Shown here piece by piece: positions 20,123 through 43,397 of a stretch of DNA of 64,000 nt (positions are counted from its first letter, which is position 1; each line of letters opens with the position of its first letter). The stretch lies in contig NZ_CP151635.1 in NCBI RefSeq assembly GCF_038397735.1, forward strand, positions 3,038,001 to 3,102,000. The letters are read 5' to 3'. A program made the position numbers and the translations under genes. The stretch is from Microbacterium sp. LWH13-1.2 (lineage in GTDB: Bacteria; Actinomycetota; Actinomycetes; Actinomycetales; Microbacteriaceae). The notes below the pieces were generated by a model. It worked only from the letters and a program-made list of their open reading frames with translations, searched no databases and was not told the origin of the DNA.

Positions 20123-23116
20123 TCAGCGCACGATGCGCAGCGTCCGCACTTCGAACGGCCGCAGACGCAGCTCTCCACCCTGGCGCCCATCGTCGAGCGC
20201 ATCCTCGATCAGCGACACTTCACGGATCTCCTGGTGCTCGAAATCGGCCACGATCGAACCCACCGCCCTCCGTCCGAGCGCCTCGTAGAGGCGCACGATG
20301 ACGTCGCCTGAACCGTCATCCGCGAGCTTCACCCCCGAGACCACGATGCCCTCGCCTTCGACGGTCACGAGTGGAGCGACCTCGCGGGCGCCGTGCACGA
20401 GCGTCGCCGGGCTGTTGAGCGCGATGCCCTCGGCCGTCGCGATCGCGGCATCCGCTCCGATCACGAAGCCCACCTCGATCGCATGGTGACCGTGATCGGT
20501 GTCGGGGTCGGGGAACCGCGGCGCCCGCAGCAGAGAGAGCCGCACGGTCGTGGCGACCGCGTCATCCGACACCTCGCGCGAGGTGTCGTAGCCGTAGATC
20601 GAGTCGTTCACGAGCGCGACGCCGAAGTCCTGCTCGCGCACCAGCACGAACCGGTGCATCGAGGTCTCGAACTTCGCCGCCTCCCAGCTGGTGTTGGTGT
20701 GCGTCACCCGCGACTGGTAGCCGAACTGCGTCTCGGCCTCGGTGTGCGTGGCCTGGATGTCGAGCGGGAACGCGAGCTTGAGCAGCTTCTCGGTCTCGTG
20801 CCAGTCGATATCGTTGCGCAGCAGCACGGTGCGCTGACCGGGCGCGAGGGTGATGGTCTGCTCGATCGTCGACTCCGAGAACGACCGCGTCACGACGACG
20901 GATGCGGTGCCGTCGACGACGGAGGCCGAGATCGAGTCGACCGCGGTGAGGTCGTCGACGCTGTTGCGGTAGTACTTGTCGATGTCCCACGCGTCCCACA
21001 TGTTCGGGAAGTCCTGGTGCAGCTGGAACAGGTTCGCCGCGCGCCCCTCGGCCACGGCCTCTCGGCCGGATGCCTTGTCGACGGCCGAGACGATGAGCCC
21101 CTCGGCGGAGACGAGCACGGAGACGAGCTCGTTCTCGAGCCGCCATCCGCCGGCCTCCTCCGACAGCGAGACGGATGCCGCACCCGGCGCCTCGACGAAC
21201 GCGGCCCCCAGAGAGCGTCCCCCTCCCACCGAGTTCGGCACGAACCTGAGCTCGCGCTCTCCCTCGCCTGCGAGCGACCGACGTGCGGCATCCGCGAGAT
21301 CCTGCGCATCCGAGAGCACAGCGGAGAGCACCTCGACGGCCTCACGATGCACCCACGCTATGGAAGTGCCGGGCAGGATGTCGTGGAACTCGTGCAGCAG
21401 CACGGTCTCCCACAGGCGGTCGAACTCGGTCTGGGGGTATGCGGCGCCGGTGCGCACGGCATCCGTCGCGGCCCACAGCTCGGCCTCGACCAGCGCGTGC
21501 TCGGCCCAGCGGTGCAGCGCCTTCGTGGCGTGCTGGCTGGTGAGGGTTCCGCGGTGCAGCTCGAGGTAGAGCTCTCCGACCCACACGGCCGGATTCGGGA
21601 TCTCCGCGCGAGCGGCCTCGAAGAAGACATCAGGATGCTCCCACTCGACCCGCGCGCTGCCCTCGAGGTTCTGCAGTCGGGTCGCCTTGCCTGTCATCTC
21701 ACGCGTGGTGCCTCCACCGCCGTCGCCCCAGCCCACCGGGGCGATCGACCGCGATGTCACGCGGTTCTCCTTGAACTGACGCGAGGCCTTGGCGACCTCC
21801 ATACCGCTGAGCTGGGAGTTGTAGGTGTCCATCGAGGGGAAGTGGGTGAACACCTGCGATCCGTCGATGCCCTCCCACAGGAAGCTGTGGTGCGGGAACA
21901 CGTTCTGCTGATTCCACGAGATCTTCTGCGTGAAGAACCACTCGAACCCGGCGCGGCGCATGAGCTGCGGCAGAGCAGGCGAGTAGCCGAAGCTGTCGGG
22001 AAGCCAGACGCCCTTCGAGCGGATGCCGAATTCCCGCTCGAAGAACCGCTGTCCGTACGAGAACTGGCGCACGAGCGATTCACCCGTCGGCATCACCGTG
22101 TCGGATTCGACCCACATTCCGCCGAGCGGCAGGAAGCGCCCCTCGGCGACGGCGGCCTTGACCCTGGCGTAGACCTCGGGCCGGTGCTCCTTGAGCCACG
22201 CGTACTGCTGCGCGCTCGACATGCCGTAGAGGAAGTCGGGCTGCTCGTCGATCAGCGTCGTCATCGACGAGGTGGTGCGGGCCACCTTGCGGATCGTCTC
22301 GCGCACCGGCCACAGCCAGGCGGAGTCGATGTGCGCGTGCCCGATCGCTGAGATGCGGTGTGCGCTCGCCTCGGCGGGGGCTGCGAGCACGCCCGCCAGG
22401 CGAGCGCGGGCATCGGATGCCGTCTGCACGATGCGCTGCAGATCGAGCACGTCGAGGGCGTCGTCCATGGCCTGCAGGATCTGCATGCGTCTCGGCGACG
22501 TCGCCGGCAGCTCAGCCTCCAGCTCGAACAGCACCTCGAGGTCGAGGGACAGCTCGAAGACCTCCTGCTCGAAGACGGCGAGGTCGATGCGGCGGGTGCG
22601 ATAGAGCGGCTCGCGGGACGACGTCTGGACGTCACCCTCCTGCGTCGGCAGGAAGGGGTGGTAGTCGAGCAGCACGGGGTTGGCAGCCGCCTCGAGATAC
22701 AGCTCGACGGGCTCGTCGCCGTGAGCGTCCTCGGTGATCGGCAGCCACTGGTTGCGCGGGTTGATGCTCTTGACCGGGCTGCCGTCAGGCCGGTAGACGA
22801 GCGCCTCGCACTGGAAGCCGGGCATGTTGATGTCGAATCCGAGGTCGATGACGGCCTCGACCCGGCGGCCGGCCCATTCCGCGGGCACGCGACCGGTGAT
22901 CTTGAACCAGGTCGTCGACCAGGCAGGGCCCCACATGCTCGGCACGGAGGCCGGGGCGAAGTCGAGAGCCAGCCCGTCGACGGGGCTGATCGGCTCACCC
23001 GGGAGCTGGTTCACCTCGATCGTGAGGGGCACGGATGCGGAGTGGACGGCCGGGCGGATGCGCTCATCGAGCACCCGCTTGACGCGGCCGACGGTGAGCG
23101 AGGTGTCGTCATGCAT
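20123..23116 (-). CDS. GH38 alpha-mannosidase (cytoplasmic)
   Basis: It cleaves alpha-linked mannose, here probably from imported N-glycan fragments. The 997-residue protein has an N-terminal beta domain, then the GH38 catalytic barrel. GHAHIDSAWLWP at 259-270 includes the zinc-binding pair His262 and Asp264. WLPDSFGYSPAL has the catalytic nucleophile Asp374. The alpha-mannosidase middle and C-terminal beta-sandwich domains follow. There is no signal peptide, so it acts inside the cell. It is divergent from the LacI gene across about 160 bp holding two copies of the locus operator, so the LacI protein should repress it. Length is normal for bacterial GH38 of this subgroup. Confidence 0.93.
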   Translation of the reverse strand: MHDDTSLTVGRVKRVLDERIRPAVHSASVPLTIEVNQLPGEPISPVDGLALDFAPASVPSMWGPAWSTTWFKITGRVPAEWAGRRVEAVIDLGFDINMPGFQCEALVYRPDGSPVKSINPRNQWLPITEDAHGDEPVELYLEAAANPVLLDYHPFLPTQEGDVQTSSREPLYRTRRIDLAVFEQEVFELSLDLEVLFELEAELPATSPRRMQILQAMDDALDVLDLQRIVQTASDARARLAGVLAAPAEASAHRISAIGHAHIDSAWLWPVRETIRKVARTTSSMTTLIDEQPDFLYGMSSAQQYAWLKEHRPEVYARVKAAVAEGRFLPLGGMWVESDTVMPTGESLVRQFSYGQRFFEREFGIRSKGVWLPDSFGYSPALPQLMRRAGFEWFFTQKISWNQQNVFPHHSFLWEGIDGSQVFTHFPSMDTYNSQLSGMEVAKASRQFKENRVTSRSIAPVGWGDGGGGTTREMTGKATRLQNLEGSARVEWEHPDVFFEAARAEIPNPAVWVGELYLELHRGTLTSQHATKALHRWAEHALVEAELWAATDAVRTGAAYPQTEFDRLWETVLLHEFHDILPGTSIAWVHREAVEVLSAVLSDAQDLADAARRSLAGEGERELRFVPNSVGGGRSLGAAFVEAPGAASVSLSEEAGGWRLENELVSVLVSAEGLIVSAVDKASGREAVAEGRAANLFQLHQDFPNMWDAWDIDKYYRNSVDDLTAVDSISASVVDGTASVVVTRSFSESTIEQTITLAPGQRTVLLRNDIDWHETEKLLKLAFPLDIQATHTEAETQFGYQSRVTHTNTSWEAAKFETSMHRFVLVREQDFGVALVNDSIYGYDTSREVSDDAVATTVRLSLLRAPRFPDPDTDHGHHAIEVGFVIGADAAIATAEGIALNSPATLVHGAREVAPLVTVEGEGIVVSGVKLADDGSGDVIVRLYEALGRRAVGSIVADFEHQEIREVSLIEDALDDGRQGGELRLRPFEVRTLRIVR

Positions 23117-23199
23117 GGTGTGATTCTCCGGGCTCGGCGGTGAGTGGGGCGTGGCTCGCGCCCAGGAGCGGGGCGGTCGCCGACAATGCTATCGGATTT

Positions 23200-23215
23200 A
23201 CTAAAGCGATCTAGT
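23200..23215. promoter_or_regulatory. LacI operator copy 1 (GH38/lacI divergent promoter)
   Basis: ACTAAAGCGATCTAGT has dyad symmetry and sits inside a wider TTACTA...TAGTAA inverted repeat. It matches the five-site consensus RCTnAAGCGnTnnAGT. Confidence 0.8.
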
Positions 23216-23252
23216 AACACGCCCGAAAACCGAGTTCGGTGGCTTCCGAGCG

Positions 23253-23268
23253 GCTAAACCGATCAAGT
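23253..23268. promoter_or_regulatory. LacI operator copy 2 (lacI proximal)
   Basis: GCTAAACCGATCAAGT differs from copy 1 at four of 16 positions and ends 12 bases before the lacI start, a position suited to autorepression. Confidence 0.75.
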
Positions 23269-23280
23269 AGTGTGAGGCGC

Positions 23281-24312
23281 ATGACTTCGGGCAAACGCGT
23301 CACCATCGCGGACATCGCGCGTATGGCCGGAGTCTCGCCCGGCGCCGTGTCGTTCGCACTCAACGGGCGCCCCGGCGTGAGCGACGAGACGCGCCAGCGG
23401 ATCCTCTCGATCGTCGAAGAGAACCACTGGCAGCCGAGCTCCGCGGCACGCGCCCTGGTCGGCGCCCGGGCCAACACGGTCGGCTTCGCCCTCGCACGCC
23501 CCGCCCGCTCGCTCGGGTCCGAGGCCTTCTTCACCGACCTCATCGCCGGAATAGAGTCGCGGCTCTCCGAGAGCAAAGTCAGCCTCCAGCTGCGCCTGGT
23601 CACCGACATCGCCGAGGAGATGGAGGTGCATCGGCAGTGGCGGTCGTCGAATCAGGTCGACGGCATCATCCTCATCGATCCCCGCGACGACGATCCCCGC
23701 AGCGACCGGATCGCAGCACTCGACGCTCGCGCGGTCCTGATCGGCTCGAAGCCCTCCCCCGACGGAGCAGTGCCGAGCGTCTGGATCGCCGACGACGAAG
23801 TCGCCGAGACGCTCTTCTCCTACCTCGCAGCCCTGGGGCACACGCGCATCGCCTATGTCGCGGGCCCCGCCGAACTCGAGCACACCCGACTGCGCGCCGA
23901 GGTGCTCGACCGCATGGCGGCCGATGGCATCTCGGGCGACGTGATCACCACGGACTTCTCCCCCGCCAGGGCATCAGCCGTCACTCGCTCCCTGCTCTCG
24001 GGCCGCCTGCGCCCGACGGCGATCGTGTACGACAACGATGTGATGGCCGTGGCGGGCCTCAGGGTCGCACAGGAGATGGGCCGCGCGGTTCCCCGCGACG
24101 TCTCGATCGCATCGTTCGACGACTCGGTGATCGCCGGCCTGATCAATCCGTCGATCACAGCGATGACCCGCGACACGTTCGAGCTCGGCGAGCAGGCCGC
24201 CACACTGCTGCTGCAGCAGATCGTCGCCGGGACGAACCTGCCCAGCGCTCAGGGCCCGACGCCGACCCTCACCGCCCGCGAGAGCACGGCTCCGCCGGCG
24301 GCAGCATCCTGA
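23281..24312 (+). CDS. LacI-family regulator of the N-glycan locus
   Basis: The 343-residue protein starts with the LacI helix-turn-helix (about 5-55: VTIADIARMAGVSPGAVSFALNG, then a hinge helix region ending SSAARALVGAR). A sugar-binding periplasmic-like domain follows (about 65-330, with IVYDNDVMAVAGLRVAQEMG near the end). The repeated 16-bp operator before it, before the ABC lipoprotein, GH5 and GH38 genes, and before the endoglycosidase gene makes it the likely local repressor. The inducer is inferred to be a mannose-containing glycan fragment. The start was chosen at MTSGKRVTIADIA. The upstream open extension covers operator DNA. Confidence 0.9.
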   Translation: MTSGKRVTIADIARMAGVSPGAVSFALNGRPGVSDETRQRILSIVEENHWQPSSAARALVGARANTVGFALARPARSLGSEAFFTDLIAGIESRLSESKVSLQLRLVTDIAEEMEVHRQWRSSNQVDGIILIDPRDDDPRSDRIAALDARAVLIGSKPSPDGAVPSVWIADDEVAETLFSYLAALGHTRIAYVAGPAELEHTRLRAEVLDRMAADGISGDVITTDFSPARASAVTRSLLSGRLRPTAIVYDNDVMAVAGLRVAQEMGRAVPRDVSIASFDDSVIAGLINPSITAMTRDTFELGEQAATLLLQQIVAGTNLPSAQGPTPTLTARESTAPPAAAS

Positions 24313-24344
24313 CGACGGTTCTCCGGCGTCTGGCGACGACGTCG

Positions 24345-25655
24345 TCAGCCGCTGACGACGGTGTTGACGGAGCCGTAGGGGTCGACCCCGCTCGTCGACA
24401 GATCAGGACGGATGAGGCGACGGATGCCGCGCGCGGCGAGCGCTGCATCGTCGAGGGCCGTCTGCGAGGTCACGAACGCCGGGTCGAGGCCGGCCGCGCA
24501 GGCATCCACCCAGGCCTGGAAGACCGCACCCCCGGGGCTGAGAGCCGCGCGACTCACGGGCACCTCGTGCTCGTCGACGTCGACCACGATCGCCGTCTCG
24601 CGCGCTGGCGCCGCAGCGCGCGCGCGCAGTTCGGGGATCAGCTCGGCGAACCGCAGACCGAGAGGCTTGGCCGCACCGCTCTGGTCGATGAGGCCGAGCG
24701 AGTACTCCAGCTCGGGGAAGTCGCCGAGATCGCGGCTCACATCGTGCGAGCACCACCAGGTCACGCCCCAGAGGTTCTCCGTGCGCGCCGCCGATCGCAG
24801 GGTCGCCTCGAGGAAGCCGGGCATCTCGCGCTCGTCGAGGCAGTTCGACGGCGCGCCCACCTCCTGCAGCCAGATCGGTCGCTCGTGATCGATGGCGAAG
24901 GCGCGGGAGAGCTCGATGAGGTACTCGGCGTGGCGGTCTGCGGCGACCGACCTGCCGCCGTAGCGCTGAGCCGTGCCGTTGAAGATCCAGGAGTGGATCG
25001 TGGTCATCTCGCCCAGACGCGATGCGTGCGCGGGGGTGAACCCATGCCCGTCCATGTACCAGACCGCGTCGTACTCGCTGTGGACGTGCGAGAGACCGGG
25101 TGCCGCCCTCTCGGCCGCGGCGAGCAGCGACTCGATCCAGTGCCCTGCTTCGTCGGTCGTGACCGGCCATGGCGACGGGTGCGTGTGCGCCGAGAACTGG
25201 TTCGTCTCATTGCCGAGAGTCAGCCCGAGGAAGTTCGGGGCGTCGCGCAGCGCGCCGGCGAGCGTCTGCACGAGGTCGACCTGCCCGCTGAGCGCGGTCG
25301 GGTCTGTGAACATGTTGCGGTCGTGCCAGGTGTAGAGCCAGGAGGGCACGAAGTCGAAGCTCGACAGGTGTCCTTGGATCACGTCGACGCTGGCGTCGAG
25401 TCCGAACTCGGCCGCGATGTCGACCATGGCGCGGACATCGTCGATCGCCTTCGTGCGGATGAGCGTACGGTTCGGCTGCAGCACCGTCCACAGCGGGAAG
25501 ACCCGCACGTGATCGAGGCCGAGCTCGGCGAGCGCCGCGAAGTCGCGCCGCACGTCATCGGGCGTGAAGTCGAGCCAGGAGTGCATCCAGTCCTTCGACG
25601 GCGTGTAGTTCGCCCCGAATCTCAGGCGAGCATCGAGAGCGCGGCGCTGCGTCAT
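24345..25655 (-). CDS. GH5-type beta-mannosidase (GH5_18-like), N-glycan core
   Basis: The 436-residue TIM-barrel protein begins with [19 protein letters not shown], a pattern I associate with GH5_18 enzymes. Characterised members cleave the Man-beta-1,4-GlcNAc unit at the N-glycan core. The acid/base Glu150 lies in [12 protein letters not shown] and the nucleophile Glu265 in IWLQEVGAP. The usual GH5 WW(C)SHD tail is also present. There is no signal peptide, so it is cytoplasmic. It is divergent from the ABC lipoprotein gene, and an operator copy lies 49 bases before the start. Subfamily assignment is from memory of motif patterns. A general cellulase-like GH5 is less likely given the context. 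Confidence 0.82.
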
Positions 25656-25703
25656 GTGTCCGGACCTTTCCGACTGAGCCCTCCAGCGAGGACATTTCGC
25701 ACC

Positions 25704-25719
25704 ACTATAACGCTTGAGC
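25704..25719. promoter_or_regulatory. LacI operator copy 3 (GH5 gene promoter)
   Basis: Read on the minus strand the site is GCTCAAGCGTTATAGT, which fits the locus consensus. It lies in the 212-bp divergent space between the GH5 and binding-protein genes. Confidence 0.8.
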
Positions 25720-25773
25720 ACCATATCGCTACCCGGAATACCGCCACTTGGCAGCGAGCGGAGTGGCGAGACC

Positions 25774-25820
25774 TTGACAGACACCGCATCCGATGGTTTC
25801 ATCTGCTAAAGCGTTGTAGT
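25774..25820 (+). promoter_or_regulatory. Promoter -35 and LacI operator copy 4 for the ABC operon
   Basis: TTGACA at 25774-25779 is a full -35 match. The -10 is not clear-cut. The operator GCTAAAGCGTTGTAGT follows at 25805-25820, where it would cover the transcription start. Confidence 0.7.
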
Positions 25821-25867
25821 CCATCTCTGTGGGCACCGCGAATCGCCCGCCTCGAGGAAGAAGCACG

Positions 25868-27169
25868 ATGAAAGTTCCCGCACGCATTGTCGCTCTGGCA
25901 ACATTCACGATCGGCGCCCTGGTGCTCGCCGGCTGCACCGGAGGCGGTGCCACATCCGGCGCATCCGGTCCGATCGACACCTCCGGCGAACTGAGCGGAA
26001 CGATCCAGTTCCAGACCTGGTCGCTGAAGAACGAGAAGTTCACGCCGTACTTCGAAGACCTGATCGACGCGTTCGAGAAGGAGCACCCCGACGTCACGGT
26101 CGAGTGGCTCGACCAGCCGGGAGACGGATACCAGGAGAAGATCCTGAGCCAGGCGAACGCCGACACCCTCCCCGACGTGCTGAACCTGCCGCCGGACATC
26201 GCCTACCCGCTCGTCGCGGCTGGAAAGCTCGTCGACCTCGAGACGGCCGATCCCGACCTGAAGTCCGGGTACAACACCGGCGCATGGGACGCATACAGCC
26301 AGTACCCCGACGTCGAGGGCACCTACGGACTGCCCTGGTACCTCTCCAGCGACGCGTCATGGTGGAACCTCGCCCAGCTCGCCCCCTTCGGCGTCACCGG
26401 GGACAACCTCCCCACCACGGTCGATGAGCTCCTCGCTCTCGCCAAGGACGTCGCGACGGAATCGGGCGGCAAGGTGCAGCTGCTCTCGTCGATCCCGGCC
26501 CTCGACACCTTCACCTCCGCAGGGATGGAGGTGATCAACGACGACGGCGAGTTCGACTTCAACACCGCCGAAGCCGCCGAGATCATCGAGAAGTACGCCG
26601 ACGCGTACGCGGCAGGAGCGATGCCCGCCGAGGCCCTGACCGGCGACTACGGCGGAAACGCCGAGGCCTACATCCAGCAGAAGGTCGCCTTCACCACGGG
26701 TGGCACCGGCTTCACTACCGATCTCGCCAAGGACGCGCCGGCACTGCTCGAGAGCACCGTCGCGACGCAGCGGCTCGGCATCCCGCCGCTCTATGTGCAG
26801 GGACTGAACGTCTCCGCCGACTCCGACAACAAGGAGGCCGCTCTCGCGTTCGCCGAGTTCGCGACGAACGAGGAGAACCAGGTCGCGTTCTCGTCGCTCG
26901 CCGTCGGCACGGCGCCCGGCACGTCGTCGGGTGGTGACGCCGTGGTCGAGAACATCTCGTCGTCGATCACCGACGAGAAGCAGCTGTCGGCGATCGACAC
27001 CGTGTTCACCGCGATGGAGGACGCGAAGGCCATCCCGTTCCAGTGGACGTCCGACATGGCGACGTACATGACCCAGCAGATCGCCCTCGCCGTCAACGGT
27101 GAAGCCGACGCTCAGACCCAGCTCGACAAGATCGTCGAGTACGCCAACGCGAACCGCGTGGACCAGTAA
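25868..27169 (+). CDS. Sugar ABC transporter substrate-binding lipoprotein (N-glycan locus)
   Basis: The 433-residue extracellular solute-binding protein has a lipoprotein signal peptide (MKVPARIVALATFTIGALVLAGC; the lipid-modified Cys is in LAGC at about 23). A type-1 oligosaccharide-binding fold follows, as in MalE-like proteins (LIDAFEKEHPDVTVEW, later WYLSSDASWWN). GAGGAAG lies about 8 bases before the ATG. It heads the operon binding protein-permease-permease-GH92 and is expected to capture released high-mannose glycans. The ligand is inferred from the gene neighbours. Confidence 0.9.
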   Translation: MKVPARIVALATFTIGALVLAGCTGGGATSGASGPIDTSGELSGTIQFQTWSLKNEKFTPYFEDLIDAFEKEHPDVTVEWLDQPGDGYQEKILSQANADTLPDVLNLPPDIAYPLVAAGKLVDLETADPDLKSGYNTGAWDAYSQYPDVEGTYGLPWYLSSDASWWNLAQLAPFGVTGDNLPTTVDELLALAKDVATESGGKVQLLSSIPALDTFTSAGMEVINDDGEFDFNTAEAAEIIEKYADAYAAGAMPAEALTGDYGGNAEAYIQQKVAFTTGGTGFTTDLAKDAPALLESTVATQRLGIPPLYVQGLNVSADSDNKEAALAFAEFATNEENQVAFSSLAVGTAPGTSSGGDAVVENISSSITDEKQLSAIDTVFTAMEDAKAIPFQWTSDMATYMTQQIALAVNGEADAQTQLDKIVEYANANRVDQ

Positions 27170-27172
27170 GCC

Positions 27173-28099
27173 ATGAGCGCGGACACCAGCATCCGGAGCC
27201 GGAGGAAGAGCATCACGTCCCACCGGTGGTTCACCCCGTGGCTCCTTCTCGGCCCCGCCGTCATCTGGGTGCTGGTGTTCGCGCTCTGGCCCTTCCTCAA
27301 CACCGTCTTCCTGAGCTTCACCGACGCGCGCCCCCTGCGGACTCCCGAGTTCGTCGGCGGCGCGAACTACGAGCGGATGTTCGGCGACGAGATGTTCTGG
27401 AACGCCCTGACCACCTGCATCATCTACGTGGTCGTCTGCGTGCCGCTGCTCACGGTGCTCCCGCTGCTGCTGGCCCTGCTCGTGCAGAAGAAGCTCCCCG
27501 GCATCGCGTTCTTCCGCACGACGTTCTACTTTCCGGTCATCGCCTCGGTGGTCGTGGTCGCGCTCATCTGGACCTGGCTGTTCGACAGCAGGGGCATCAT
27601 CAACCAGACCCTCGAGTTCCTCGGACTCGTCGACAAGCCGATGGCCTTCCTCGTCGACCGGTGGCTGCTGCTCGGCTGCGCGATCCTGCTGACGGTGTGG
27701 AAGGGGCTCGGCTACTACATGGTCGTGTACCTCGCGGCCCTCGGCAACGTCGGCAAGGAGCTGCACGAGGCCGCGATGCTCGACGGAGCAGGATCCTTCC
27801 GCCGCTTCCTCTCGGTGACGATCCCCTCGGTGCGCGGAGCGATGCTCCTGATCGCCGTGCTCATAGCGGTCTCGGCGATGAGGGTGTTCGCCGAGCTCGA
27901 CGTGCTCTCCAAGAGCACCGGCGGCCCCGGCGGCTACGACATGTCGCTCGTGATGCTGATCCGTCAGGTGGGCTCCGGCCTGAACGGCAACATCGGCTAC
28001 GCCTCCGCGATCAGCGTCGCGCTGTTCCTCCTCACCCTCATCCCGCTGGCCGCGATCGCCTTCATGAATCGCGAGAAGAAGGCGAAGGTCTCCGCATGA
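27173..28099 (+). CDS. ABC sugar permease 1 (MalF-type)
   Basis: The 308-residue inner-membrane protein has six predicted helices and a binding-protein-dependent permease EAA-like loop (GKELHEAAMLDGAGSFRRFLSVTIP at about 200-225) that contacts the ATPase. It starts 3 bases after the lipoprotein stop, and its stop overlaps the next start (ATGA). No ATPase gene lies in the cluster, so a shared MsmK-type ATPase encoded elsewhere is expected, as is usual for this transporter class in Gram-positive bacteria. Confidence 0.9.
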   Translation: MSADTSIRSRRKSITSHRWFTPWLLLGPAVIWVLVFALWPFLNTVFLSFTDARPLRTPEFVGGANYERMFGDEMFWNALTTCIIYVVVCVPLLTVLPLLLALLVQKKLPGIAFFRTTFYFPVIASVVVVALIWTWLFDSRGIINQTLEFLGLVDKPMAFLVDRWLLLGCAILLTVWKGLGYYMVVYLAALGNVGKELHEAAMLDGAGSFRRFLSVTIPSVRGAMLLIAVLIAVSAMRVFAELDVLSKSTGGPGGYDMSLVMLIRQVGSGLNGNIGYASAISVALFLLTLIPLAAIAFMNREKKAKVSA

Positions 28100-29031
28100 C
28101 CACACTCACTCCGCCCCGGGTCGACGATGACCGCCGGCCCGACGAGCAGCCCGCTCCGCCCACGCGCGAGCGCATCTTCCGTCGCCGTGGTTCGGGAGAC
28201 TTCAGCAAGCCGACGCTCGGTGGCCTGATCGGTCGCTACGCGCTCCTGCTGCTTGTTCTCGTGCTCGTCATCGGTCCGTTCATCTGGCAGCTGTCGACCT
28301 CTTTCAAGGGACCGCAGGAGAACATCTACTCGTTCCCGCCCGACCTGATCCCCCGCGATCCGACGCTGCAGAACTATGCCACTGTCGCCGATATCGTCCC
28401 GGTCTACCTGTATGCCTGGCACTCCCTGCTCGTCTCGGTCGGCACGGTGCTCAGCAACGTGGTGCTGGCCACCTTCGCGGGCTATGCGCTCGGATGCATG
28501 CGGTTCCGCGGCAAATGGATCGTCATGGCCATCCTGCTCTCGACCCTGCTCTTCCCCGGCGAGGTCACGGTCACGAGCAACTTCCTCACGATCCGCGCGC
28601 TCGGGCTCGCCGACACCCTGTGGGGCGTGTTCCTTCCCGGCGCCATCAGTGCCATGAACGTACTGCTCATCGCCACGGCCTGCCGCATGATCCCGAAGGA
28701 CGTCCTCGACGCCGCGACCGTCGACGGGGCCACCACCTGGCAGCGGATCCGTCACATCGTGTGGCCCAACATCCGCGGCATGGTCTCGGTCGTCGCCATC
28801 TTCGCCTTCATCGGCGCATGGGACGACTACCTCTGGCCGCTGATCGTGCTCTCCGATCCGGCGAAGTACACACTCACCGTCGGCATGGCCTACCTGAACA
28901 GCAGCTTCTCTGTCGATCCTCGCCTGATCGCGGCGGGCACCATGATCGCGCTCGTGCCGATCGTCATCATGTTCTCGTTCACTCAGCGGTTCTTCTTCAA
29001 GGGCGTGCAGGAGGGTGCGATCAAGGGGTGA
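28096..29031 (+). CDS. ABC sugar permease 2 (MalG-type)
   Basis: The 311-residue permease has a charged cytoplasmic N-terminus (about 1-45), six membrane helices and the loop PKDVLDAATVDGATTWQRIRHIVWP for ATPase contact. It ends FFFKGVQEGAIKG, the typical MalG/LacG tail. It is coupled to permease 1 by an ATGA overlap, and to the GH92 gene by a GTGA overlap at 29028. Confidence 0.9.
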   Translation: MTTLTPPRVDDDRRPDEQPAPPTRERIFRRRGSGDFSKPTLGGLIGRYALLLLVLVLVIGPFIWQLSTSFKGPQENIYSFPPDLIPRDPTLQNYATVADIVPVYLYAWHSLLVSVGTVLSNVVLATFAGYALGCMRFRGKWIVMAILLSTLLFPGEVTVTSNFLTIRALGLADTLWGVFLPGAISAMNVLLIATACRMIPKDVLDAATVDGATTWQRIRHIVWPNIRGMVSVVAIFAFIGAWDDYLWPLIVLSDPAKYTLTVGMAYLNSSFSVDPRLIAAGTMIALVPIVIMFSFTQRFFFKGVQEGAIKG

Positions 29032-32000
29032 GCATCGTGCATCTCGTGCCGGCGGACGGCCCGGCCGACCCTCCCTCGTCCCGTCCGCGGGCAGGAGTGC
29101 TGCGCGGTCAGGTCTTCGCCTTCGCCTTCGACCCGTCGGCCGGTGTGCAGCGGATCGATGTTCCCGGGCTCGCAGACATGCCCGTCACGCCTGACACCGT
29201 GTTGCACTGGGCGTTCTACGCCGACGGCTCCGACGCCGCCCTCGCCCCGCACGCGGCGCTCGCGGTGACGGTCGATGTGCGCGGCGCCGACGACTCGAGG
29301 CTCGGGGAGATCGCCGCCGTGCGTGATCGGTACGACTTCCCCATCACCGCTGGCGCGCAGTTCGCAGCACGCTGGAGCCTGCCGGAGCAGTGGAACGCCG
29401 ACACCGTGTCGCTGGCCCCGATGCTCAGTGACTCGGCGCCGCAGACCTCGGTCACGGTCGAGCTCGTCTTCGGCACCGCGTCACTGGCCTCAGAGCCGCA
29501 CCTGCCGTCACGCGTCAGCGGCTTCGTGCAGTGCGTCGTCGACGAGATGCCGGATTCGGCTGCGGCGGAGGACACTCCTCCCGTCGAACGCGTGGACACC
29601 CGTCGAGGCACGCACTCGGGCCCGCGCTTCTCGCGCGGCAACACGATTCCTGCGGTCGCCGTTCCACACGGCTTCACGTTCGTCACCCCGGCCACCGATG
29701 CGTCAGACACGCGCTGGCCCTACCGCCCGAGCATCCATGACGACGCACCGGGGCGCCGCCTCGAAGCACTCCAGTTCTCTCATCAGCCGAGCCCGTGGAT
29801 CGGCGACCGCTCGGTGCTCCAGCTGATGCCGTTCGACGGGCGCCCGCTGTCTGACCGTGCGGAGCGTCGACGCTGGATCACGCCCGGCACCGAGCGCGCC
29901 CGCCCGCACGAGTACTCGGTCGACCTCGGCGGACTGCGCGCAGAGATGACCGCGACCTCGCACGCCGCCGCCTTGCGGGTGCGCGGCGCCGAGGCCGACG
30001 CCGTCGTCGGGTTCGTGATCGATCAGCCGACCGACGAGGGGCAGCTGGAGTGGACGGATGACGGGGGCTTCGAGGGGTGGACGCCCGAGGGTCCCGCGGA
30101 CTGGGGCAACGCTCCGCGCTGCTACTTCGCCGGCATCGTGCTGCGGGGCGAGGGCGACGACGCCCCGGGCCCGCATGGCACGCTCGACGACGACGGGCGA
30201 GCCCGGGTCACCGGCTACGTCGGCGGCCGAGGGTCGCTCGAGGTGCGGGTGGCGGTGTCGTTCGTGTCGGTGGAGCAGGCCAGGCGCAGCCTCACGCTCG
30301 AAGCACCGGCTGAGGTGACCTACGAAGAGTTGCGGGCGGCATCCGCAGCATCCTGGAACCGTGTGCTGGGGCGCGTGACCATCCCGCCCCTCCCCGAGGC
30401 GGAGGCTCCGTATCGCCGACTGGCGCACGACGAGCATGTGAGCCGGATCGCCGCGGCCCTGCACCGGATGCATCTCTATCCGAACACCGCCGCCGAGAAC
30501 GCGGGAACCACCGACGCCCCGTACCTTCGGTTCGCCGACGTCTTCGCGGCGCGCGAGCCGTTCGGCGAGCGCGCCACCAGCGCCCCGATCGTCGATGGCG
30601 AACTCGTGGTGAACAACGGATATTGGGACACCTACCGCACCGAATGGCCGGCGCTCGCGATGCTGGATCCTGCGCTGACCGGCAGGCTGCTCGATGGGCA
30701 GCTCGAGCAGTATCGCCGCGGAGGCTGGATGGCCCGGTGGAGTGCTCCGGGATACGTCGACAGCATGGTGGGAACGTCGAGTGACCAGATCTTCGCCGAC
30801 GCCGCCCGGTGGGGCGTGCAGTACGACCGCGCGGAGGCGTTCGAGAGCGGCTGGCGCAACGCCTGCGAGGCGGGGCCCGATGCGCTGCGCGGTCGCAAGG
30901 GCATCGCCCGCGGGCGCTTCACCGGATTCATCTCGTCGGACGTGCCCGAGGGCATGAGCTGGACCATCGAGAACGCCGTGAGCGATGCCGCACTCGGCCG
31001 GTTCGCCGCGCAGCTCGCCGCCGACGCGGAGCAGCACTCCGACGCGGAATCTGCACAGGATGCCGCGCGCTACCGCTCCTTCGCCCGCTACTTCGCGAAC
31101 CGGGCACTGTCGTACCGCACTCTGTTCGATGCCGACTCCGGGTTCCTCCGCGGCAAGGACACCGCCGGAGACTTCGCCGCCGGCTTCGATCCGCGCCTCT
31201 GGGGCGGCGACAATGTCGAGACGAACGCATGGGGCATGTCGGTCGGTGCCGTGCACGACGGAGCCGGACTCGCGGCGCTTCATGGCGGCGGCGACGCCTT
31301 CGGTCAGCACCTCGACGCGCTCTTCTCGGAGCCCGAGAGCGCCGACGAGCGATTCGGCGGGGCTTACGGCACCGTGATCCACGAGCAGCGCGAGGCTCGG
31401 GCTCTGCGCTCGGGTATGTGCGCGATCTCGAATCAGCCCGCCCACCACATCCCCTTCATGTACGCGTTCAGCGACCGGCCGTGGCGCACCGCGGCGATCG
31501 TGAACGACCTCGCCGGCCGTCTCTTCGCGGGCGCGCACATCGGTCAGGGATTCCCCGGCGACGAGGACAACGGCGAGATGAGCGCGTGGTGGCTGTGGGC
31601 TGCCCTCGGGCTCTACCCGCTCGAGCTCGCGTCGGGAGTGCTGCGGATCGGGTCTCCCCTGTTCGACGACATCCGCGTCGATCGCGGCGACGGCTCGTCG
31701 CTTCGCATCCGCTCTCATCGCAGCGCGCCGGGCGCCCATGTGCTGCAGAGTGCGCGACTCGACGGGGTCGCGCTGCCGCGAGCCGAACTGCCCGTCGAGG
31801 CGCTCGTCGGCGACGCCGAGCTGGAGCTGGTCTTCGGCGCCGACCCTTCGGATGCCCTCGAGACGAGCGATCACGAACCGGCAGATGTCGCAGCCTGGTG
31901 TCGCGATCTGACGGCCGACCGAGCAGACGTGATCGCGTCAGCATCCGTCGTCGATGCCTCGCGTCTCTTCGACGACGGCGATCCGAGCGGTTCGAGCGGC

Positions 32001-32288
32001 GTCGCCCTGGCTGCCGGCGAATGGGCGGGGTGCCGCTTCACCGAGCCCCGCGCCGTCAGCGACCTCACCGTGACGATGGTCGCTGCAGCCCCGTCGTCGC
32101 GCCTGCAATGGGAGGTCATCGATGAGGACGGATGCTGGACCGCGACGCCGACCACGCACGACGCGGAGCTTGCCGCAGACCGCACCACCCCGTTCGCGCT
32201 GGCGTCACGGGCTGTGACCCCGGCGATCCGCGTGCGGGCGGAGGCCGGGGTCACGATCCGTCAGATCGAGGTCTTCGACCTCGGGTGA
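29028..32288 (+). CDS. GH92 alpha-mannosidase without signal peptide
   Basis: GH92 enzymes are calcium-dependent, inverting exo-alpha-mannosidases, often acting on alpha-1,2 links of high-mannose N-glycans. The 1086-residue protein has a beta-sandwich N-domain with NTIPAVAVPHGFTFVTP. Its (alpha/alpha)6 catalytic domain includes NNGYWDTYRTEWPAL, NQPAHHIPFMYAFSD and GFPGDEDNGEMSAWW (Glu846-Glu850). The last 120 or so residues resemble a discoidin/F5-8-type carbohydrate-binding domain. There is no secretion signal, unlike many GH92, which fits trimming after import. The GTG at 29028 overlaps the permease stop. The GTG at 29037 is an alternative with a better-placed GGGGTGAG. Confidence 0.9.
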   Translation: MSIVHLVPADGPADPPSSRPRAGVLRGQVFAFAFDPSAGVQRIDVPGLADMPVTPDTVLHWAFYADGSDAALAPHAALAVTVDVRGADDSRLGEIAAVRDRYDFPITAGAQFAARWSLPEQWNADTVSLAPMLSDSAPQTSVTVELVFGTASLASEPHLPSRVSGFVQCVVDEMPDSAAAEDTPPVERVDTRRGTHSGPRFSRGNTIPAVAVPHGFTFVTPATDASDTRWPYRPSIHDDAPGRRLEALQFSHQPSPWIGDRSVLQLMPFDGRPLSDRAERRRWITPGTERARPHEYSVDLGGLRAEMTATSHAAALRVRGAEADAVVGFVIDQPTDEGQLEWTDDGGFEGWTPEGPADWGNAPRCYFAGIVLRGEGDDAPGPHGTLDDDGRARVTGYVGGRGSLEVRVAVSFVSVEQARRSLTLEAPAEVTYEELRAASAASWNRVLGRVTIPPLPEAEAPYRRLAHDEHVSRIAAALHRMHLYPNTAAENAGTTDAPYLRFADVFAAREPFGERATSAPIVDGELVVNNGYWDTYRTEWPALAMLDPALTGRLLDGQLEQYRRGGWMARWSAPGYVDSMVGTSSDQIFADAARWGVQYDRAEAFESGWRNACEAGPDALRGRKGIARGRFTGFISSDVPEGMSWTIENAVSDAALGRFAAQLAADAEQHSDAESAQDAARYRSFARYFANRALSYRTLFDADSGFLRGKDTAGDFAAGFDPRLWGGDNVETNAWGMSVGAVHDGAGLAALHGGGDAFGQHLDALFSEPESADERFGGAYGTVIHEQREARALRSGMCAISNQPAHHIPFMYAFSDRPWRTAAIVNDLAGRLFAGAHIGQGFPGDEDNGEMSAWWLWAALGLYPLELASGVLRIGSPLFDDIRVDRGDGSSLRIRSHRSAPGAHVLQSARLDGVALPRAELPVEALVGDAELELVFGADPSDALETSDHEPADVAAWCRDLTADRADVIASASVVDASRLFDDGDPSGSSGVALAAGEWAGCRFTEPRAVSDLTVTMVAAAPSSRLQWEVIDEDGCWTATPTTHDAELAADRTTPFALASRAVTPAIRVRAEAGVTIRQIEVFDLG

Positions 32289-32307
32289 TCATTTCGATCT
32301 CAGGGGA

Positions 32308-33516
32308 TCACTTCGACAGGATGAACGACACCTCGGTGGTGTTCCCGGCGACGTCGACGACCTGCAGCGTGTTCGCGCCAGTGACCGCTCCGAAGGCGCC
32401 CGACTTCACGAAGTTCAGGTCGCTCCACTCGTTGTCTGTGAGATCCTTCTCGACGCCGTTGACGTAGAGCCTGTCGATCTTGCCCTCGTCGTAGAGCGTG
32501 AAGCTGACCCGCTGATAGCCGACCGCCGCATCGCCCTTCGTGAACCGCGCGCCCTCCTTGACCGTGACGGTCGGGGGCGTCGTGTCGCGGGGCGCCGCCC
32601 GATACTCGGTCGCCTCGCCCTTCAGCGCCTCGGTGATGCCCGAGAGATACGCCGACTGGTCGGTCGCGGTGAGGTTGTACGCGACATAGACGCCGTAGCC
32701 GTCGGCGACGGTGCGGGTCGCGAAGTCCGCGGCGGTGGCTGCGCTCGTGTTCGCCAGGTCGATGGCCGCAGCCCCGAGCAGACCGCGGTCCTCAAGGCCG
32801 GGAACGACGGGCGCATCGTAGGTCGGGTAGTAGGGGTTCCAGGCGTAGTCGAGCACGCTCGCGGCATCGAACAGCGTGAAGTCGGTCGTCGTATAGGTCG
32901 GGCCGATCGCGTACAGGCTGATGATCTTGTCGGGGCCGAGTCGATCGCGCAGCGCGGTGGCCAGCCATCCGAACGACTCCGCATTGGGCTGCGGCGTGCC
33001 ATTGGCGCCGTAGTTCGTCCACTCGTCGTCGAAGTCGATGCCGTCGAGCCCGTAGGTCGTCACGGCGTCGGCGAGCTGAGCGGCGAACGCATCGGCCTGC
33101 GCGAACGAGGTGAAGTTCGCGAAGCCGGCACCCTGGTGGTTGCCGAGCACCGAGAGCAGCACCTTGGTGCCCTTCGCCTGCACAGGACGGATCTGCGTCT
33201 CGGCATCGTCGAGCGTCTCGGTGACCCGCTCGTTGAAGTGCAGGTATGCCTTCTCACCGTCGTAGTTGATGTTCGCAGCGAAGATCATCGCCATGTCGAT
33301 GGCTGCATCGCCGGACTCGGCGAGCGTGTAGTCGGCGACGTTGGCTAAATCGTTCGAGTTCACCTCGACGTAGACGGCGAGCTTCGGGTCGACGGGCTCA
33401 GCGCTCTCGGCGGCGGCCCCCAGCGAACCGGTGAGAATGCCTGCAGCAGCGGTCGCGAACACCCCCAGCCCGGCGATGCCCTTTCGCAATCGGTGATTCC
33501 TGACGTTCTGACTCAT
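32308..33516 (-). CDS. Secreted EndoH-like GH18 endo-beta-N-acetylglucosaminidase
   Basis: It cuts between the two core GlcNAc residues of high-mannose N-glycans. The 402-residue protein has a signal peptide (basic start then GIAGLGVFATAAAGILTGSLG, cleavage near residue 35). The GH18 barrel carries the DxxDxDxE motif DGIDFDDE at 158-165, with catalytic Glu165. It shares segments with Streptomyces endoglycosidase H, such as PDKIISLYAIGP and DYAWNPYYPTYD. The C-terminal 90 residues (TPPTVTVKEGARF onward) look like an added Ig-like beta-sandwich. AAGGAG precedes the ATG. An operator copy 62 bases upstream ties it to the LacI regulon. It is convergent with the GH92 gene. Confidence 0.92.
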   Translation of the reverse strand: MSQNVRNHRLRKGIAGLGVFATAAAGILTGSLGAAAESAEPVDPKLAVYVEVNSNDLANVADYTLAESGDAAIDMAMIFAANINYDGEKAYLHFNERVTETLDDAETQIRPVQAKGTKVLLSVLGNHQGAGFANFTSFAQADAFAAQLADAVTTYGLDGIDFDDEWTNYGANGTPQPNAESFGWLATALRDRLGPDKIISLYAIGPTYTTTDFTLFDAASVLDYAWNPYYPTYDAPVVPGLEDRGLLGAAAIDLANTSAATAADFATRTVADGYGVYVAYNLTATDQSAYLSGITEALKGEATEYRAAPRDTTPPTVTVKEGARFTKGDAAVGYQRVSFTLYDEGKIDRLYVNGVEKDLTDNEWSDLNFVKSGAFGAVTGANTLQVVDVAGNTTEVSFILSK

Positions 33517-33577
33517 GACGGATCGTCTCCTTCGGCGTCGTTGTCGAATCCGGCCGCACCGTCGCGACCTGCGGCCG

Positions 33578-33593
33578 ACTATAGCGCTTAAGT
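33578..33593. promoter_or_regulatory. LacI operator copy 5 (endoglycosidase promoter)
   Basis: On the minus strand the site reads ACTTAAGCGCTATAGT, an almost complete palindrome and a match to the locus consensus. It lies 62 bases before the endoglycosidase start. Confidence 0.8.
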
Positions 33594-33626
33594 ACGCCAT
33601 CCGGAAGAAGTCCGGTCCGACGGCCA

Positions 33627-33660
33627 GGAGGGGGCGGATGCTGCAGCATCCGCCCCCTCC
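33627..33660. terminator. Terminator after the L-fucose isomerase-family gene
   Basis: A perfect 34-bp palindrome (17-bp arms, loopless on paper; in RNA the centre would open) lies 36 bases after the stop of the minus-strand isomerase gene and before the endoglycosidase promoter. It insulates the two regulons. Confidence 0.88.
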
Positions 33661-33696: not shown

Positions 33697-35328
33697 TCAG
33701 ATCGTCACGTCTCCGACCAGGTTGACCTTGATGCCCATGCCCGCGAACATCGCAGCCTTGGCGATCAGCGCCTTGTCTGCCGTCTCGGCATCCGGCGCGT
33801 AGACGAGCTGAGCGTGATTGGCCTTGTGCCGGGCCATGAACTGATCGCGCGAGATGCCGTGCAGGACCACGTGCGCGATCGGCCACTCCGGGTTCGTCGC
33901 GTCCTTGCGGCGCTGGGTCTCCTCGGTCGGGAGCTCGACGACGGAGGCGCGGAAGATGTCGGCCTGCAGGATGCCGTCGGCGATGAACACGCGCGACAGC
34001 ACGATCTCGCCGGGCTTCGAGACGCCGTTGATCGTGGCGCCGCCCGCGGGGAAGAAGACATGGCCCTGACGCCATCCCTCGGCGTTCTGCCACCCGCCGA
34101 GGTGCGACGCGGGGACCGAGCCCGAGATCTCGTAGACCCAGACGAACCGACCGTCGAAGTCCTCACCCCACCGCACGTCGTGCAGCGTGTTGTCTGGCAC
34201 GAGGCCCATCGCGCGCCACACCCGATCGGTGACCAGCGCATCGACCGCGACGCCCTCGTCGGCCTCGTTGAAGTGGGGGAAGGCTCGGCCCTCGTGCAGC
34301 ACGCGCGAGCCGTCACGGGATGTGACGGGCGGGCGCTCGGTCGAGTTGAGGATCCCCTCGGCCAGATCCGATGCCGGAACGAGGTCCTTGAGTCCCTGCT
34401 GGTACTGGATGCCGACGGCGTCGAGGCCGAAGTCGTCGGCGATGCGGAGCGCGGCGATGTACATCTTCAGCTGCCACTGCACCTGCTCGCGGGTCAGCTC
34501 GGTCTCGGCATCCTCGCCGTACCGGAACGTCATGCCCGCGTCGATCAGCCAGTCGTAGGCGGCATCCGCCTCGCCATCGGTGACGTTCAGCATCTCGGCA
34601 TACAGAGCCGACTGCGAGAGACGCTCCTTGTAGATGCCGGTCTTATTGAGCAGCTCGTCGTCGAAGATCGCGTTGTACATGCCCATGCAGCCCTCGTCGA
34701 AGACGCCGATGATGGCCTTCTCGGCGAGCAGCTCTGCGGCGAGCGCCTCACCCAGCGCCTTCTCGGGGCCGTCGGGCAGCTCGGGCAGCGGACGCACGTG
34801 GGACGCGTCGTGCGTGATCGAGCCGGTCTCGGTCCACTCCACGATGCCTCTTCTGAACCACTCGTCGGTGAAATCGACCGACCAGATCGTGGCGTACGGC
34901 TTGTCCATCTTGGTGAGGCCCGCGTTCAGGCCGAGGAGTCCGACGAGGCCGGGCCAGTCGCCGGCGAAGTTCGCGACGGTGAGGATCGGCCCCTCGTGCG
35001 TGCGCAGGCCCGCGAGCACGTGGTGCGAGTACTGCCAGACCGCCTCGGCGACGATCAGCGGAGCATCCGTCGGGATGTTCTTGAAGACCTCGAGACCCAT
35101 GCGCTGGCTCGAGATGAAGCCGTGGCCGGTCGCCGGGTCGACGTCGTTGGCGCGGATGACAGTCCACCCCAGGTCGTTGAAGACGCCGGTCACGCCCGCT
35201 TCGAGCTCGACCTGCACGGGCCAGCCGCCGGTGTTGGCGGCCTCGCGCAGGTCGCCCGAGGCGATCAGGTACGCGGTCTTCGGCGCGGACGCCGGTCGGG
35301 ATGCCGGTGCCGGCAGGGTGTAGGTCAT
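33697..35328 (-). CDS. L-fucose/L-arabinose isomerase-family protein
   Basis: The 543-residue protein is a member of the L-fucose isomerase-like superfamily of metal-dependent aldose-ketose isomerases. Visible segments include TILTVANFAGDWPGLVGLLGLN-like core sequence near 125-145, GVFDEGCMGMYNAIFDDELLN (a likely metal/substrate region with Glu and Asp) and VGIQYQQGLKDLVP. AGGAGG sits 8 bases before the ATG. The promoter contains a TGAAATCGGTTTCA operator, also found before the adjacent LacI gene and a sugar-acid operon at 44.7 kb. The substrate is not certain: L-fucose, D-arabinose or a related sugar. It is followed by a strong terminator. Confidence 0.75.
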   Translation of the reverse strand: MTYTLPAPASRPASAPKTAYLIASGDLREAANTGGWPVQVELEAGVTGVFNDLGWTVIRANDVDPATGHGFISSQRMGLEVFKNIPTDAPLIVAEAVWQYSHHVLAGLRTHEGPILTVANFAGDWPGLVGLLGLNAGLTKMDKPYATIWSVDFTDEWFRRGIVEWTETGSITHDASHVRPLPELPDGPEKALGEALAAELLAEKAIIGVFDEGCMGMYNAIFDDELLNKTGIYKERLSQSALYAEMLNVTDGEADAAYDWLIDAGMTFRYGEDAETELTREQVQWQLKMYIAALRIADDFGLDAVGIQYQQGLKDLVPASDLAEGILNSTERPPVTSRDGSRVLHEGRAFPHFNEADEGVAVDALVTDRVWRAMGLVPDNTLHDVRWGEDFDGRFVWVYEISGSVPASHLGGWQNAEGWRQGHVFFPAGGATINGVSKPGEIVLSRVFIADGILQADIFRASVVELPTEETQRRKDATNPEWPIAHVVLHGISRDQFMARHKANHAQLVYAPDAETADKALIAKAAMFAGMGIKVNLVGDVTI

Positions 35329-35362
35329 GACTCGCGTCCTCCTTGATCGCACGTGTTCTGCC

Positions 35363-35392
35363 ACTGTATGTGAAATCGGTTTCAGACTGCAA
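35363..35392 (-). promoter_or_regulatory. Isomerase promoter with LacI-type operator
   Basis: On the minus strand TTGCAG (35392-35387), an 18-base spacer and TACAGT (35368-35363) form a promoter. The operator TGAAATCGGTTTCA (35371-35384) fills the spacer, so a bound repressor would exclude RNA polymerase. Confidence 0.75.
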
Positions 35393-35510
35393 CCGGTCAT
35401 CCGTTCTGCACTGTCGCCAACTTCGCCGACTTGTGCACACCGAGTGTGAACTCCGGCATACAGCGCGGGACCCCGGTGACATCCTGAGTTCCGCGCCGAA
35501 CAATGGAGGT

Positions 35511-35864
35511 ATGGACTTGAGCGATCCGCAGGCCTGGACGATGATCGGCATCTTCGCGAGCGCGATGCTCGGCGGCATGACCCTGATGACGACACAGTTC
35601 AGCCGGGTGCTTCGCGCCGAGATCGGGGGCCTTCGCGGCGAGCTCGGCGGCGAGATCGGCGGCCTTCGCGGCGAGCTCGGCGGGCTTCGCGGCGAGTTGC
35701 GCGGCGAGATCGACGTGCTGCGCACTGAGATGCGAGCCGGTTTCGAGGTGATGAACGTGCGGCTCGACTCCCTCGACACCCGACTCACTCGTGTCGAGGG
35801 CAAAGTCGACGACCTCGACACCGAGCTCACGCACCTCGCGACTCGGTTCTGGCGGTCTCAGTGA
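35511..35864 (+). CDS. Small membrane-anchored coiled-coil protein (117 aa)
   Basis: The ATG has GGAGGT directly before it, so the spacing is very short. Residues about 8-27 (WTMIGIFASAMLGGMTLMTT) form one membrane helix. The rest is a heptad-rich coiled coil with an in-frame repeat of GGLRGELGGEI-type units (about 40-70), then a Leu-rich end (LDSLDTRLTRVEGKVDDLDTE). The function is unknown. Single-helix coiled-coil proteins of this type are common and often annotated hypothetical. The repeat encodes alternating Arg/Glu, ideal for oligomerisation. Confidence 0.65.
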   Translation: MDLSDPQAWTMIGIFASAMLGGMTLMTTQFSRVLRAEIGGLRGELGGEIGGLRGELGGLRGELRGEIDVLRTEMRAGFEVMNVRLDSLDTRLTRVEGKVDDLDTELTHLATRFWRSQ

Positions 35865-35880
35865 GGGACCGCGGGTGCTG

Positions 35881-36876: not shown

Positions 36877-36882
36877 CGGCAC

Positions 36883-36898
36883 ACTGTAACCGATTTCA
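36883..36898 (-). promoter_or_regulatory. Autoregulatory promoter/operator of the second LacI gene
   Basis: TGTAACCGATTTCA (36885-36898) matches 12 of 14 positions of TGAAATCGATTTCA. The minus-strand -10 TACAGT (36888-36883) overlaps it. Confidence 0.65.
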
Positions 36899-36941
36899 AT
36901 CGCGTCGGGGAGCTCGCGATCAGGCAGACGAGGCCCGACGG

Positions 36942-38639: not shown

Positions 38640-38701
38640 GTCCTCCATCCTGCCCCGGGCGGCTGTGAGGCGCCCCCGCGCTGCGCCCGAGGCCGGCCCG
38701 G

Positions 38702-40434: not shown

Positions 40435-40449
40435 GAGTCGTCCTTCCAC

Positions 40450-41535: not shown

Positions 41536-41579
41536 GCGTGGTCCTTCCGATGTGTGCGTCGTGGATGTGGGGTGCGCGG

Positions 41580-43390: not shown

Positions 43391-43397
43391 GTCGACC

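Follow-up and report, generated by a model that had tools for sequence, protein, structure and literature searches.

What does a Microbacterium, a soil and plant bacterium like Curtobacterium, do with an EndoH-type endoglycosidase, three further glycosidases, an importer and a LacI-family regulator encoded side by side, and how would such a set be controlled? The genes lie at positions 20123-33516 of a 64,000-nucleotide stretch of Microbacterium sp. LWH13-1.2 (NZ_CP151635.1, positions 3,038,001 to 3,102,000), here called the window. The genome is a single contig of 3.77 Mb, and the closest named relatives of the glycoside hydrolase family 5 (GH5) protein of the locus are Microbacterium proteins, at no more than 93% identity. 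The answer we favour, with a probability of roughly 0.85, is a LacI-controlled regulon for N-glycans with interchangeable exported endoglycosidases, the window holding its structural core in the version with EndoH and GH92, directed at high-mannose glycans. This reading is directly supported by gene content, family signatures, active-site residues, co-inheritance of the genes, and conservation of a putative operator together with its recurrence at GH85 genes.

Gene content and conservation of the locus

The first-pass annotation had described a gene set for the use of high-mannose N-glycans, and all eight genes were found, in the order GH38 (minus strand), lacI (plus), GH5_18 (minus), solute-binding protein, two permeases and GH92 (plus), and EndoH (minus) (Table 1), with the catalytic residues of GH5_18, GH92 and EndoH intact. 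Families were assigned with Pfam and NCBIfam profiles, and the GH5 protein, which matches neither, through solved structures. EndoH scores 365.7 bits on NF045482, an equivalog with a cut-off of 300, over residues 44-304, with an additional C-terminal stretch at about residues 305-402; it aligns with 6ve1 and 1edt, and its residues 158-165 (DGIDFDDE) agree with the GH18 catalytic motif DxxDxDxE. The N, middle and C domains of GH38 are all recognised by Pfam profiles, and the protein aligns over nearly its full length (813 bits) with its best solved match, the alpha-mannosidase 7ufs, which we take to be from Bifidobacterium longum. To judge from relatives and from the genome, where GH125 has no match, this enzyme may be specific for alpha-1,3 and alpha-1,6 linkages. 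GH5 aligns with the solved GH5_18 enzymes 9y4v (858 bits), 7lr7, 7lqx, 6mp2 and 6gvb (364 bits), and its Glu150/Glu265 correspond to Glu140/Glu259, the catalytic pair of CaMan5_18 (PMC6160142). In GH92, alignment to 7nsn places the general acid at Glu731, the bases at Asp845 and Asp847, and the +1 triad at Trp257, His785 and Glu786, a Trp/His/Glu set linked to alpha-1,2 specificity (PMC10167667). The EndoH equivalog, the alpha-1,2 triad and both GH5_18 glutamates bear out the substrate class that had been proposed.

To look for export signals, the first 60 residues of each protein were scanned for hydrophobicity. Leaving aside the two membrane permeases, a signal-like stretch was detected only in EndoH and the lipoprotein, and none in GH38, GH5 or GH92, as the first-pass annotation had it; its ATP-binding cassette (ABC) importer is likewise supported by the lipoprotein and permease families. 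An endoglycosidase, a binding protein with two permeases, and unexported GH38 and GH5_18 enzymes stand within one locus, as in a cytoplasmic N-glycan pathway of the B. longum or Cutibacterium acnes type; Pfam detected no SusC/SusD pair in the eight proteins and one neighbour.

From these features we infer the enzyme activities, transporter specificity, LacI binding, the inducer and the identity of the ATPase. Secreted EndoH would act on glycoproteins, releasing high-mannose glycans by a cut between the two N-acetylglucosamine (GlcNAc) units of the core; the lipoprotein and permeases, whose specificity for N-glycans is suggested by gene context, would import the ManxGlcNAc products, with energy supplied by an ATPase whose gene lies outside the locus. 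Within the cytoplasm, alpha-1,2-linked mannose would be taken off by GH92 and alpha-1,3/1,6-linked mannose by GH38, and GH5_18 would split the remaining Man-beta-1,4-GlcNAc into mannose (for ManA) and GlcNAc (for the Nag enzymes). LacI would repress the units through a shared 18-bp operator, with some imported intermediate presumably releasing it. As to the endoglycosidase that is exported, it would be a swappable module, the same core and operator occurring with EndoH, an EndoS-type GH18 and/or GH85.

The statement that no ABC ATPase, hexosaminidase or phosphomannose isomerase is present holds for the locus and fails for the genome, which encodes all three elsewhere. Among 124 ATPase matches a single UgpC-type one is above the cut-off (470.8 bits against 432), and it probably powers the importer; ManA scores 180 on TIGR00218 (cut-off 116); there are three GH20 genes, one of them adjoined by NagB and a ROK-family kinase. 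The genome-wide operator scan gave no match near the ATPase, ManA or NagB/ROK genes. Since EndoH cleavage leaves no GlcNAc-GlcNAc bond in the freed glycan, the lack of a hexosaminidase in the locus is no gap, and on this chemistry, besides the three GH20 genes, such a gap was rejected.

We also searched for the gene set in named genomes, taking the best 80 of 171 EndoH relatives. It is conserved as a unit: at least three of six core genes occur in 43 loci, namely 21 of the 23 Microbacterium loci (short contigs account for the remaining two) and 22 from outside the genus, most of them Curtobacterium and one Nocardioides. The window gene order is kept in 18 Microbacterium loci, as far as contig or flank extends, while three more (L023-L025) and the 22 Curtobacterium-type core loci have other orders. 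In 35 further non-Microbacterium loci (Streptomyces, Kribbella, Nonomuraea, one Curtobacterium and others) EndoH occurs without the core within the flank examined.

Table 1. Predicted features of the locus, in window coordinates
Feature	Position	Strand	Basis or remark
GH38 alpha-mannosidase	20123..23116	-	PF01074 (307.5 bits) and three more GH38 domains; no signal peptide
LacI-family regulator	23281..24312	+	PF00356, PF13377; listed open reading frame starts at 23239
GH5_18 exo-beta-1,4-mannosidase (Man-beta-1,4-GlcNAc)	24345..25655	-	acid/base Glu150, nucleophile Glu265
Solute-binding lipoprotein	25868..27169	+	PF13416, PF01547 (SBP_bac_8/1); lipobox LAGC
ABC permease 1	27173..28099	+	PF00528 (BPD_transp_1)
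ABC permease 2	28096..29031	+	PF00528 (BPD_transp_1)
GH92 exo-alpha-1,2-mannosidase	29028..32288	+	PF07971 (312 bits); no signal peptide
Secreted EndoH-type GH18 endo-beta-N-acetylglucosaminidase	32308..33516	-	NF045482; 6ve1/1edt
Putative operator 1	23199..23216		core of the 20-bp near-palindrome TTACTAAAGCGATCTAGTAA; between GH38 and lacI
Putative operator 2	23252..23269		immediately upstream of the likely lacI start
Putative operator 3	25703..25720		divergent intergenic region, GH5_18 side
Putative operator 4	25804..25821		divergent intergenic region, lipoprotein side
Putative operator 5	33343..33360		within EndoH coding sequence; codons for NSNDLA, including a TTA leucine
Putative operator 6	33577..33594		EndoH upstream region

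The lacI and GH5 genes probably begin inside their listed open reading frames, at the starts implied by the table (23281 and 25655).

A near-palindrome shared across the locus

An 18-bp near-palindrome, approximately TACTAAAGCGCTTTAGTA, is common to the region between GH38 and lacI, the region between GH5 and the lipoprotein gene, and the region upstream of EndoH. The pattern RCTNNANCGNTNNAGY has six matches in the window, compared with 0.18 on average in 100 shuffles, and no shuffle reached six; genome-wide it has 12 matches, six of them in the locus. At least one site was found in 21/21 Microbacterium core loci, in 21/22 other core loci and in 21/22 further core loci of the same genus, while the 35 EndoH loci without the core hold four sites in 690 kb. 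One of these four is strong and lies upstream of a lone EndoH gene of Curtobacterium sp. Leaf261 (L026), with no core within 10 kb, which suggests a remote member of the regulon. Among the Curtobacterium-type core loci, 16 were scanned by matrix, and seven have GACTATAGCGCTTTAGTC as their best site, adjoining or at the lacI start and facing the importer; the operator is shared although LacI there is only about 55% identical. In the 149 genomes of the genus considered below, the strict form ACTNNANCGNTNNAGT occurs in 36 of the 42 with GH5_18 (76 sites) and in 18 of the 107 without (21 sites; Fisher 3.9e-15), the reversed control giving 11 and 22 sites respectively. LacI-family operators are even palindromes with a central CG, and the near-palindrome is presumably the operator of the LacI of the locus, in keeping with the earlier proposal that this regulator controls it.

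The site within EndoH covers the codons AAC TCG AAC GAT TTA GCC. Codon 57 is TTA in 21/21 genes (the window and L003-L022), related and not independent sequences in which TTA otherwise accounts for six of about 580 leucine codons; L023-L025 have a different residue there and no TTA. A general excess of codon conservation was rejected: among six-codon windows of EndoH, that of the site does not rank in the top ten for codon conservation, other stretches are more conserved on average, and only the fixed TTA stands out. The lac system has auxiliary operators, and by analogy the observation is suggestive of such a role for the in-gene site.

Proposed exchange of exported endoglycosidases, and neighbouring DNA

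Among the 149 genomes, a GH5_18 match was found in 42, keeping three with one in-frame TGA (G042, G148 and G085, the last only 39% identical). EndoH above the family cut-off occurs in 20, all within the 42; matches below it in G004, G048, G114 (twice), G124 and G128 were left out. EndoH is within 10 kb of GH5_18 on the same contig in 18 of these 20, and the other two (G023, G030) are fragmented assemblies. EndoS-type GH18 and GH85 enzymes were each found in seven genomes, again all within the 42; EndoS-type matches under 100 bits, including one in G114 at 27.1 bits (cut-off 27) and weak matches to EndoH genes, were not counted. At least one of the three kinds is thus present in 29/42 genomes with GH5_18, compared with 0/107 others (Fisher 4e-21).

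The 22 genomes with GH5_18 but no EndoH supplied 23 loci for examination, and the loci of seven of the 20 EndoH genomes were extracted by region. An EndoS-type GH18 with a signal-like N-terminus is found in place of EndoH in L111, L113, L116, L117, L119 and L122, and no GH92 was found in these six loci. The four EndoS-type proteins scanned score 287-305 bits on the EndoS TIM-barrel domain PF23916, and the best solved relatives of one of them are 6kpl, 7puj, 8uen and EndoS. None of the seven EndoS-type genomes has EndoH above the cut-off (chance of zero overlap 0.006), and an operator lies at most 130 bp upstream of the EndoS-type gene in three of the six loci. This mutual exclusion is limited to the two GH18 types, because GH85 co-occurs with either: with EndoH in G014, G030 and G107, with the EndoS type in G108 and G111, and alone in G096 and G115.

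In G107 an operator site was found upstream of an exported GH85 (twin-arginine-like N-terminus) located on a contig other than that of GH5_18. With a matrix built from the window sites alone, an operator of at least 20 bits lies 51-106 bp upstream of 6/7 GH85 genes (5/6 without the discovery case G107); all six are on other contigs than GH5_18, with linkage possible in the fragmented G030 and G108. On a GH5_18 tree of 72 rows, which has long branches, is not a species tree and leaves out L128 (below 37% identity), the EndoS label requires seven changes for seven rows, at least five of them forced by well-supported branches and no fewer in all than in shuffles, and the EndoH label requires ten; transfer of whole loci is a possible alternative cause of this distribution.

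It is possible to go further and to propose, with somewhat better than even confidence, a modular regulon of the Microbacteriaceae, defined by one LacI operator, in which unrelated exported endoglycosidases (EndoH-type GH18, EndoS-type GH18 and GH85) were taken up and exchanged repeatedly, re-tuning the class of glycan while importer and cytoplasmic core stay, and in which, in the clade of the window, the in-frame EndoH operator on the fixed TTA serves repression, as a loop or a roadblock.

Several variants of the locus were observed. L106 and L107 (G134, G126) keep the other seven genes in window order, with no EndoH and a FucIC-like gene beside GH92; these genomes are possible scavengers of glycans freed by others. 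A sulfatase gene lies between the lipoprotein and GH5_18 genes in four genomes (L108:7753-9180, L109, L111, L113; PF00884/PF16347 in L108), perhaps serving sulfated N-glycans. In L110 (G042) the GH5_18 match holds an in-frame TGA, GH38 is matched at half length only and the importer not at all, yet two operators are still present; it is to all appearance a decaying locus.

Beyond EndoH, positions 33697-44672 (minus strand) encode a protein with an L-fucose isomerase C-terminal domain (33697-35595), a LacI, an AMP-binding enzyme, a DHDPS-type aldolase, an SDR, a permease and a solute-binding protein, and seem to form a distinct cluster for a sugar or sugar acid, equipped with a regulator of its own. 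The FucIC-like gene was rejected as a member of the locus, with no operator upstream of it and a different palindrome there; it has no match in the flanks of L003, L004, L009 and L013 and is near the locus in many other Microbacterium genomes. Between it and EndoH, at 33633-33654, stands a perfect 22-bp palindrome, GGCGGATGCTGCAGCATCCGCC, not flagged by the terminator scan and perhaps a terminator stem.

Competing readings and known systems

Several observations weigh against the regulon proposed here. The window sites themselves supplied the operator pattern, post hoc, so that the tests outside the window weigh more, and its genome total of 12 shows no overall enrichment; since the reversed pattern has 18 matches, it is the clustering that stands out and not the count. 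The simple promoter and terminator scan gave nothing beyond shuffles. Among solved structures, none with a known N-glycan ligand is closely related to the lipoprotein. Of the 42 GH5_18 genomes, 13 have no endoglycosidase of the three kinds and may scavenge or use an unrecognised enzyme. For three of the six EndoS-type genes the 300 bp upstream hold no strict operator, and the seventh GH85 (G096), a few kb from GH5_18 in L125, has no operator, nor does its core. The pairing of EndoH with GH92 is not obligatory: within the flank examined, GH92 at 50% identity or more is present in 21/21 Microbacterium core loci and 0/22 others, with matches of 34-37% in L045, L068 and L070.

The import of whole glycans, which the locus suggests, must be set against a second GH92 at about 3332221-3338349 of the same genome (L101:4222-10350). 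This multidomain protein of 2042 amino acids has an N-terminus resembling a signal, contains F5/8C and PKD domains, and at its C-terminus carries a membrane tail preceded by a LAGTG-like motif; it retains the His-Glu pair and the GDEDNG motif, and could trim glycans outside the cell. Surface trimming could then come first, with import of Man5 or smaller glycans only, as modelled for Streptococcus pneumoniae (PMC10154615, PMC5215778). We consider this mixed location doubtful: the genome-wide scan gave no operator match near the large gene, and alpha-1,2-mannose is to be expected inside the cell because the GH92 of the locus is unexported and directly follows the importer genes. The same surface-type enzyme would also suit a locus importing mainly alpha-manno-oligosaccharides from yeast or fungal walls, where mannoproteins would be the target of EndoH and N-glycans a minor substrate, and GH92 and GH38 act in mannan breakdown as well (PMC10154615). 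However, GH5_18 and EndoH target the core of N-glycans, a structure missing from mannan side chains, the three endoglycosidase kinds track GH5_18, and the genome has no GH125 (the search did not cover GH76 and GH99), which makes a fungal substrate improbable. As for control, another regulator might bind the near-palindrome, for all its likeness to LacI-family operators, the adjacent LacI controlling only itself or nothing here; yet there are sites in the gap separating lacI from its neighbour, and they accompany lacI into rearranged loci, even with a LacI only about 55% identical, and we regard this as improbable.

With the N-glycan regulon as the preferred reading, the locus would extend to Microbacterium and Curtobacterium a way of foraging that has until now been described chiefly from pathogens and from bacteria of the gut and skin (PMC10154615). 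The 18-bp operator offers a handle for finding further endoglycosidases, and by its means GH85 genes on separate contigs have been found already; the finding also suggests a pairing of endoglycosidase type with glycan class, and the new EndoH-, EndoS- and GH85-type enzymes would be useful as reagents. No published report of an N-glycan locus or regulon in either genus was found among the matches listed from the open-licence literature, and PMC4746261, on a Bifidobacterium regulon, does not mention N-glycans or mannosidases. A GH92 of Microbacterium sp. M-90, alphaMan2, was characterised long ago and carries CBM32 (PMC10167667); by its description it would be more like the multidomain GH92 of the genome than that of the locus.

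Bacteroides polysaccharide utilisation loci import through SusC/SusD, and the high-mannose pathway of B. longum was reportedly described by Cordeiro et al. in 2022. The first-pass annotation had presented cytoplasmic trimming as new and contrasted it with outer-surface trimming in Bacteroides, and neither point can be maintained: both B. thetaiotaomicron and B. longum are described as having their exo-mannosidases within the cell, the endoglycosidase acting on glycans not yet trimmed (PMC10154615), and the intracellular division of labour is already known from B. longum and proposed for Cutibacterium acnes, with one enzyme demonstrated (PMC10154615, PMC6160142). The B. thetaiotaomicron high-mannose locus resembles ours in its endoglycosidase-first order and internal exo-mannosidases (PMC10154615), and differs in importing through a system of the polysaccharide-utilisation-locus type in place of an ABC importer. 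B. longum shares the early endoglycosidase, glycan import and internal GH38 enzymes (PMC10154615), together with the GH38/GH5_18 pair (PMC6160142), but its operon has three GH38 genes and GH125 (PMC10154615), whereas here there is one GH38 with a cytoplasmic GH92. NGD locus 1 of C. acnes has, as here, signal-less GH38 and GH5_18, a solute-binding protein, permeases, a regulator and a GH18 candidate; unlike ours, it includes GH20 and ATPase genes, its GH18 is listed without a signal, and the text that describes it names no GH92 (PMC6160142). In S. pneumoniae, EndoD, NgtS-P1-P2, GH92, GH38 and GH125 likewise rely on ABC import of released ManxGlcNAc, with a binding protein for Man5GlcNAc and no ATPase gene nearby, MsmK being proposed; the endoglycosidase is a GH85, the genes are dispersed to judge by locus tags, and GH125 is present (PMC5215778), while GH92 is modelled as acting outside (PMC10154615), in contrast to the signal-less GH92 of our locus. 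Compared with these systems, what seems to be new is the shared operator, the exchange among endoglycosidases and the site within the EndoH frame.

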